A DNA stretch of 64,000 nt from Hymenobacter jeollabukensis. GTDB taxonomy: Bacteria; Bacteroidota; Bacteroidia; Cytophagales; Hymenobacteraceae. The notes beneath the pieces were generated by a model. The model was given only the letters and a program-made list of their open reading frames with translations. It made no database searches and was not told where the DNA came from. Each line of letters begins with the position of its first letter. The first letter of the stretch is position 1. Location of the stretch: NCBI RefSeq assembly GCF_005771675.1, contig NZ_VAJM01000011.1:124001-188000 (forward strand). The letters run 5' to 3'. Shown here one piece after another: positions 30,753-56,353 of the stretch. Made by a program: the position numbers and the translations under genes.

Positions 30753-31516
30753 AGTGGTACTACGACTCAAAAGTCGTAGTACCACTATCGTTGCTGACGT
30801 TGAACGGTTATATTGGCTCAATAACAGAGGTAGTACCAAGCCTTCGGCAATTGGTACTACCTCTGCGCTAACTACCCTTATCGATTATGTCAGCTCTCAA
30901 TCTACAGCCGCACAAGCTGTATCATATCTACAATCGAGGCAACAACCGCGAAGCTATTTTCTACTCGCCGGAGAACTATCGGTATTTCCTCACCAAGCTC
31001 CGCCGCTACCTCACGCCTCACCTGCGCATCCTGGCCTGGTGCCTAATGCCGAATCACTTCCATTTGCTGGTGCAGGTGCGCGAGCGAGCCGATCTGCCCC
31101 GCTGCAGCATTGACTTACGTCTGCTGCTTAGTTCGTATACCCGAGCCATTCAAAGCCAATATGGCCGCACCGGTTCGTTGTTTCAGCAGCACACCAAAGC
31201 CAAGGAACTGGACAACAACGAATACGCGCTGGCCTGCTTTTGCTACATCCACCAGAATCCGCTGCGGGCTGAGCTGGTCAGGGAGCCGGCACAATGGGTC
31301 TGGTCTTCGTACCAGGATTACGCCGGCCTGCGTAGCGGCACATTATGCGACCGGGCAGCCGCAATAGAGGTGCTGAATTTGCCGACTGAAGCGGCGCAAA
31401 TAGCATAGCTTATCCGGCAAACGCTGCCAGCTGATGTAGCGGCAGCGCTGTATTGATCCGGATTGTTCAACGTCAGCAACGACAGCGGTACTACGACTTT
31501 AAAGTCGTAGTACCGC
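30753..31516. mobile_element. RAYT/REP element: transposase gene between inverted hairpin repeats
   Basis: Each end is a hairpin followed inward by the same 17-mer. Left: 15-bp stem 30753-30767/30772-30786, then CGTTGCTGACGTTGAAC at 30789-30805. Right: its reverse complement at 31465-31481, then a perfect 16+16 palindrome at 31485-31516. Stem sequences at both ends share GGTACTACGACT. A further 15-bp hairpin (30825-30839/30851-30865), also with GGTAGTACC, lies before the transposase start. The element sits between a hypothetical gene and the 3' end of thiL. Confidence 0.8.
30887..31408 (+). CDS. REP-associated tyrosine transposase (Y1_Tnp / RAYT)
   Basis: 173 residues. The single-stranded-DNA HUH transposase fold is marked by KLYHIYNRGNNREAIFY at the start, the metal-binding histidines in MPNHFHLLVQV, and the single catalytic tyrosine expected in the helix near ALACFCYIHQNPLRAEL. 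Such proteins cut REP hairpins on single-stranded DNA. Here the gene lies inside matching hairpin repeats, which supports an intact self-mobile or REP-maintaining unit. A second element with the same core sequence lies at 56156-56342. Confidence 0.92.
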   Translation: MSALNLQPHKLYHIYNRGNNREAIFYSPENYRYFLTKLRRYLTPHLRILAWCLMPNHFHLLVQVRERADLPRCSIDLRLLLSSYTRAIQSQYGRTGSLFQQHTKAKELDNNEYALACFCYIHQNPLRAELVREPAQWVWSSYQDYAGLRSGTLCDRAAAIEVLNLPTEAAQIA

Positions 31517-56133: not shown

Positions 56134-56155
56134 CGATATGGCCGCAGGCCAAGCT

Positions 56156-56342
56156 CCCCTCCTTTTTAAAGGAGGGGATGCTGCCGCTTTAGCGGCGGCT
56201 GGGGTGGTTCGGCCGTTGCTGATGTTGTTTAGCCCGAAAAAAGACGCAAAGAGGTCCTAACGCCAGTCGTTCAACGTCAGCAACGACCAAACCACCCCAG
56301 CCAAGCCTGCGGCTTGGCGTCCCCTCCTTCATAAAGGAGGGG
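56156..56342. mobile_element. MITE-like REP pair (BIME) with RAYT core sequence
   Basis: A 187-bp symmetric element without a gene. Each end is a hairpin CCCCTCCTTT/AAAGGAGGGG (56156-56177; 56321-56342). Next inward are GCCGCTTTAGCGGC (left) and CCAAGCCTGCGGCTTGG (right), then TGGGGTGGTT and its inverse AACCACCCCA. Innermost is CGTTGCTGATGTTG (left) and GTTCAACGTCAGCAACG (56269-56285), the exact 17-mer that flanks the RAYT gene. It separates the promoter side of cca from the 3' end of tsaC. Confidence 0.85.
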
Positions 56343-56353
56343 AGTCGACCCAA

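Follow-up and report, generated by a model that had tools for sequence, protein, structure and literature searches.

An inner module shared by a RAYT gene with its hairpin repeats and a gene-less repeat of a different family in Hymenobacter jeollabukensis

The window analyzed here, a stretch of 64,000 nucleotides from contig NZ_VAJM01000011.1 of Hymenobacter jeollabukensis, contains an open reading frame at 30887-31408 (+), which codes for a protein of 173 amino acids and represents a REP-associated tyrosine transposase (RAYT/TnpA_REP). The product scores 28.7 bits against the Pfam profile Y1_Tnp (cut-off 23), which marks it as a Y1 HUH domain protein, and 70.8 bits (E 1e-19) against the NCBIfam profile REP_Tyr_transpos (NF047646), below the cut-off of 80. 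The histidines of its HUH motif (H57-F-H59) and Y120 are conserved in all of 23 aligned sequences. A profile of these sequences matched the structure of E. coli TnpA_REP in the PDB (4er8, E 6.2e-6), which was also the top fold match of an AlphaFold model of the protein (pLDDT 94.4); a phmmer search of the PDB with the single RAYT protein gave no match. No other Y1 transposase was found in the genome (6.18 Mb searched). Two genes, both ending towards the RAYT gene, are its neighbors, and a search for RNA families in the window returned nothing but a tRNA. Compared with a published table of TnpA_Y1 subclass motifs, the protein shows NHFH, FQ, and YIHQNP. According to the available text of PMC6006769, subclass 2.6 (Bertels group 5) is characterized by NH[LIV]H, WQ, and YIH[QN]NP, and its YIHQNP motif and flanking atypical structures in Bacteroidetes fit the window RAYT, while the second pattern of subclass 2.1 in the same text fits NHFH and FQ better.

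The gene is enclosed by two inverted hairpins, both of them perfect inverted repeats: one at 30753-30786 (+) with 15-nt arms and the GT[AG]G-type foot GTGG, the other at 31485-31516 (-) with 16-nt arms and the foot GCGG, which is still paired. Just inside them, exact copies of the 17-mer CGTTGCTGACGTTGAAC are found at 30789-30805 (+) and 31465-31481 (-), as had been described in an earlier reading made from the sequence alone (referred to below as the sequence-only reading); on the left side, a head module TCGTTGCTGAYGTTG starts one base before the 17-mer. With the cores included, the ends of the RAYT element form a 50-nt inverted repeat of 92% complementarity, and single-strand DNA folding of the ends gave z values of -6.3 and -6.9. 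A further hairpin is located in the leader of the gene (30825-30865, +), ending 21 nt upstream of the start codon. It is also present in the RAYT orthologue of H. gummosus, in which both arms are altered in matching fashion. Because of these changes and because its 3' arm GGTACTACC is similar to the REP arm, the RAYT may bind its own leader.

The 17-mer occurs once more in the window, at 56269-56285 (-) in a gene-less element, where it is opposed by a degenerate copy CGTTGCTGATGTTG at 56214-56227 (+), which deviates in one base over 14; the sequence-only reading was correct on both copies. The element (56155-56343) belongs to a repeat type termed class P here and consists on either side of an outer CCCCTCC hairpin (56155-56178, +; 56320-56343, -), a second hairpin varying by locus (56183-56196, +; 56300-56318, -), and the GCTGGGGTGGTT motif typical of class P (56198-56209, +; 56290-56301, -). 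The second hairpin and GCTGGGGTGGTT intervene between the CCCCTCC hairpin and the core, so that the two are not in direct contact, which corrects the sequence-only reading. These compound hairpins do not fit the definition of a REPIN by GTRG-foot REPs cognate to a RAYT, and the inclusion of class P among the REPIN-like elements relies on the core, because class P lacks both a known transposase and a GTRG foot. No class P flanks were seen around Y1 genes among the part of the Y1 loci displayed. A candidate class P transposase was considered in genome G107, where two class P elements flank one gene (L401), and was dismissed, since the 482-aa product does not look Y1-like by eye. The core sites are spaced by 1618 bases both there (G107:C2:142300-144400) and in G113:C1:3846400-3848500 (L400).

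The proposal that the window unites an autonomous unit with its non-autonomous derivative had to be abandoned. The 56-kb element belongs to another, commoner family, and core elements also occur in genomes without a Y1_Tnp match (for example G005 and G085, the latter with 29 cores). The gene-less relative of the window RAYT is, as judged from its stem sequences, a class A REPIN outside the window (G000:C3:3884-3993), which consists of two inverted cognate REPs around a short spacer and folds as a long single-stranded DNA hairpin (-36.2 kcal/mol, z -9.5). The window comprises a RAYT REPtron with GTGG-type hairpins and, separately, a repeat without a gene that belongs to a different family.

Allowing up to three mismatches, the 17-mer has three matches in the window against 0.23 expected, a number reached in none of 100 shuffles. 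The genome-wide count proposed with the sequence-only reading gave 4 exact copies of the 17-mer in 6.18 Mb and, at up to three mismatches, 125 matches against 56 for the reversed pattern; the 14-mer CGTTGCTGAYGTTG has 26 matches vs 1 for the reversed control. The contexts of all 26 genomic 14-mer sites were read, and 24 of them adjoin repeats, which fall into five hairpin classes: class P (a CCCCTCC hairpin, then another of variable sequence and GGGGTGGTT) with 16 sites, class A (GTGGTACTACGACT, the type of the window RAYT) and class C (GTAGAGACGC..GCGTCTC) with three each, class B (GTAGCGCGAAC) and class G (GTAGGCCCGCG) with one each; two sites have no hairpin. Since core-first searches start from the core itself, the search was also run from the hairpins. 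TCGTTG was then found on one side at four of six class A places (TCGTG at the other two), and CGTTG follows 9 of 11 class C hairpins and 21 of 25 class P hairpins, compared with 223 of 12300 random 13-nt windows. At GCTGGGGTGGTT sites without a hairpin, CGTTG follows in none of five cases; a 31st match of this motif, which had no locus, was left out of the count. The most constant part of the module is CGTTGCTGA, present in 20 of the 25 class P flanks obtained in this way.

The same picture extends to related bacteria. The 14-mer is present in all of eight genomes examined from the genus (75 matches vs 2 for the control), although the single match in G006 is not beside a hairpin, and 480 matches are distributed over 77 of 120 genomes of the family. 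Most of them fall into genera g1 and g5 (447 vs 31 in 51 genomes), with 33 vs 8 matches in the 69 genomes of the other four genera. A part of the sites found, 186 distinct ones from 38 genomes, was classified by regular expressions, with 13 loci relabelled by hand. Repeats of eight hairpin classes adjoin 156 of these sites (C 85, P 51, A 8, D 4, E 3, B 2, F 2, G 1), and 30 have none; the additional classes D (GGGGCCGCCGAAC), E (GTAGGGGCGC), and F (GTAACGCGAAGC) have few members each. A stem of at least 7 bp lies directly upstream of the core at 118 of the 186 sites, as compared to 86 of 3240 random places. In agreement with the hairpin-first searches, these counts bear out the earlier statement that the core is kept while hairpins are exchanged. 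Among the hairpin-free sites with 3-kb loci, 23 of 25 lie within open frames of at least 250 codons and at most two look like lone intergenic cores, a weak test, which 26 of 56 element sites pass as well. Core counts do not follow the number of Y1 genes, the correlation being weak (Spearman 0.31, p 0.15, 24 genomes). Five genomes without a Y1_Tnp match (G085, G073, G061, G113, and G101) contain 9 to 29 core matches, as if the transposases had been lost and the repeats left behind.

The module is not symmetrical within an element. Among 43 full class C elements, the head CGTTGCTGA occurs at one end in 41, at both ends in one, and at neither in one; its two ends can thus be told apart as head and tail, and the usual form is GTAG-hairpin-(A)(A/G)T-CGTTGCTGAYGTTG ... 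GTTCAACGA-hairpin. The tail of classes A and C, TCGTTGAACGR, lies just inside the hairpin opposite the head TCGTTGCTGAYGTTG, and the class A REPINs of G000, G001, G002, and G115 have the same head and tail. In a sample of 119 class C hairpins from fetched loci, which is biased since most of the loci were fetched by the core, 60 are followed by the head, 48 by a tail-like flank, and 11 by neither. The spacers of four elements (L186, L195, L210, and L263) contain other repeats of the GTCATGCTGAGC..GCATCTC and CATCCTGACGAAGGAAGGACC types and therefore seem to host further insertions. A second common interior string, similar to CAGATAGTAACTTC, was noticed at L145, L158, L162, L164, and L214, both in class P elements and, in the form CAGATAGTATTCTCC, near GTAGCGCGGACT-type repeats adjoining a gene for another RAYT, RAYT-B; it is perhaps another module common to several families.

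Two further RAYTs adjoin repeats of these classes. RAYT-C (G016) lies between two class C GTAGAGACGC REPINs, each with head and tail. It reaches 23.2 bits against Y1_Tnp (cut-off 23) and 56.1 bits against REP_Tyr_transpos (E 3.8e-15, cut-off 80) and is barely alignable with the window RAYT, the best BLASTP matches being of 10 and 9 amino acids (E 0.13 and 1.3). RAYT-B (G003) shares 31% identity with the window RAYT over 103 amino acids, and upstream of its gene (L217) lies a GTAGCGCGAAC REPIN that has TATCGTTGAA on both inner sides. The 14-mer occurs within 700 nt at only two of 51 Y1 loci, those of the window RAYT and of RAYT-C (L393), and the link of the two RAYT subclasses to the module thus amounts to one locus each; at this extent, unrelated stems adjoining different transposases meet one inner module. 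The 9-mer CGTTGAACG is found within 700 nt of 8 of the 51 Y1 loci, with 12 copies in the 71 kb near Y1 genes vs none in the other 85 kb of these loci. We infer that the stems next to a RAYT are the ones it serves.

The sequence-only reading had suggested the core rather than the stem as the part recognized by the protein. Among ten inspected relatives of the window RAYT (RAYT-A), eight (from six Hymenobacter, Arsenicibacter, and Cesiribacter) retain GTGG-type 12-bp stems with up to two mismatches, and two from Dyadobacter have other stems; the variable stem positions are mostly paired and show matching changes. The 14-mer was present in the flanks of none of the 30 RAYT relatives checked (of 80 fetched), and TCGTTGC is kept in three of six Hymenobacter RAYT-A relatives. 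The GTGG hairpin is thus better retained among the relatives than the core, and recognition of the core is not supported by these comparisons. By analogy to the available text of the work on TnpA_REP (PMC8266576, PMC3686654), the foot and hairpin are likely to be what the RAYT reads.

The stems themselves appear to undergo turnover. In a REPIN with aligned flanks in G000 (C3) and G001 (C7), all four stem arms differ (ACT/AGT vs AGT/ACT); the spacer differs at two places, the loops differ, and one arm carries a further difference. The H. gummosus RAYT orthologue, which by eye lies in the same neighborhood, differs in the hairpin top at either end. In 26 of 57 class C elements, the left hairpin is identical to the right one, while random pairing within genomes gave a mean of 10.3 and never reached 26 in 2000 shuffles. 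The two ends of an element mostly belong to one class (C-C 75, P-P 28, A-A 4, B-B 2, F-F 2, mixed 8), with 37 of the 156 elements lacking a recognized right end. Six of the eight mixed calls were found by eye to be regular-expression matches in other repeats, one (L238) is undecided, and one (L280) was kept as a hybrid with a class P left and a class D right end. Out of 50 flagged site pairs, five sets were aligned; the pair L036/L360 was dropped, as its flanks do not align. One intergenic slot is occupied by class P in G000 and by class C in G085, with the core in the same direction in both, and at the position of the class P right half of L278, the orthologous locus L189 carries a GTAGCGCTGAG repeat. 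These cases of stem replacement (L280, the P/C slot, and L189/L278) are few in number, and another explanation is conceivable for each of them.

RAYT/REP pairs, REPINs, and orthologous RAYTs with different REPs are already known. The REPtrons and REPINs or BIMEs of E. coli, Pseudomonas, and Stenotrophomonas resemble the elements described here in the HUH Y1 protein with its TnpA_REP-like fold, in the inverted GTRG-foot hairpins around the gene, and in the gene-less doublets folding as a long single-stranded DNA hairpin. For the REPINs of P. fluorescens, the available text of PMC3116915 describes the spacer as less conserved than the REPs and as mattering by its length and pairing, whereas the spacer ends are constant across stem families here. 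Orthologous RAYTs with different hairpins, as in the window and H. gummosus, are also reported for the REP orthogroups of Nunvar 2013 (PMC3686654), and unlike here, no inner flank common to several REP classes or RAYT subclasses is mentioned in the portion of that article at hand. The repeats with GTAG/CGTC tags and the TIRtrons of the Di Nocera group (2013, PMC3733652) are similar in that, as far as the accessible part of the paper goes, they comprise GTAG families, dimers whose spacers are in some cases conserved, and composites of a degenerate REP with an unrelated stem-loop; the conservation described there is within families, and none across families with different stems was seen. An inner module common to several REP families was not found in the literature searched, nor was any Hymenobacter work on extragenic palindromic repeats or RAYTs; the matches listed for Hymenobacter MITEs and transposases included none on these repeats, and those listed for the core sequence were unrelated papers.

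Both elements of the window thus belong to a REPIN-like set in Hymenobacter-like bacteria with a common inner module, which suggests that the repeats are assembled from interchangeable parts. The interpretation we favor, to which we give an even chance of being right, is that the stems of these REPIN-like elements change in concert or get replaced, while an inherited inner module persists. In the mechanism we infer from the sequence comparisons, each RAYT would read the GTRG foot and stem of its own family, and the element would move as folded single-stranded DNA. Given the long palindrome that the element forms, template switching or conversion might carry an alteration of one stem over to its partner, and stems might sometimes be swapped for those of another family. 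The inner module would outlive stem replacement and hence appear uniform among families with different stems. A further reason for its retention may be that it supplies something needed, for example if the CT in GCTGA were the cleavage dinucleotide. Weak points are the two RAYT loci alone that have the 14-mer nearby, the rarity of hybrids, the core counts that do not follow Y1 gene counts, and the dependence of class P on the core for its inclusion. In addition, the P/C slot pair could represent two independent insertions into a short gap, matching hairpins at the two ends might mean that a copy is young and not that conversion took place, and passive inheritance alone hardly explains an exact 14-base identity over such divergence.

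The main rival is a functional site under selection in all families with exchangeable hairpins and a fixed core, either the cleavage or strand-transfer site of several RAYTs or a binding site of a host protein, which we regard as possible but rather improbable. The CT of GCTGA is placed by eye about 7-9 nt inside GTRG-type hairpins, and TnpA_REP of E. coli and S. maltophilia cuts at CT near the REP, with support for cut-site choice by the GTAG guide in a Marinomonas TnpA_REP (both in the available text of PMC8266576); however, the CT is seen at the head end only and the tail has none. The constancy of CGTTGCTGA would also fit, as would the difference between head and tail, which makes the element directional, in line with the needs of single-strand transposition. 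The loss of the core next to RAYT relatives that keep their GTGG-type stem stands against it, as do the many cores retained without a Y1_Tnp match, such as the 29 of G085. The module might instead be a directional 14-nt adaptor used by several unrelated RAYT subclasses, for example as their cut site, with the stems as swappable address tags, and families could then change their transposase by an in-place stem swap; with the full module at only two RAYT loci, we consider this doubtful. An unlikely view is that REPs of different families inserted beside a core that was there before them as a repeat, or that serves as a favored insertion site: the interiors of some elements do contain other repeats (L186, L195, L210), but recognized right ends mostly match the left family, with only eight mixed calls, and at most two of the 25 hairpin-free sites look like lone intergenic ones in the weak test mentioned. 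A single RAYT acting in trans on all families through recognition of the core would account for the one Y1 transposase in a genome with five core-bearing hairpin classes. This is very improbable given that class C and B repeats adjoin other RAYTs elsewhere, that none of the 30 RAYT relatives has the 14-mer in its flanks, and that cores remain in genomes without Y1_Tnp matches. Finally, 30 of the 186 sites have no recognized hairpin and are mostly in long open frames, as for a chance or common protein-coding motif, which the matches over the reversed control (26 vs 1) and in g1 and g5 (447 vs 31), with a weaker excess of only 33 vs 8 in the other four genera, reduce to a negligible prospect overall and refute for the hairpin-borne sites.

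To our knowledge, how REP families gain new stems while their RAYTs stay specific is an open question. The Hymenobacter elements provide a single unchanging inner module as the reference for comparing several stem families and two unrelated RAYTs. Orthologous loci with a changed stem and an unchanged spacer make stem turnover, palindrome correction, and RAYT recognition testable in environmental bacteria.
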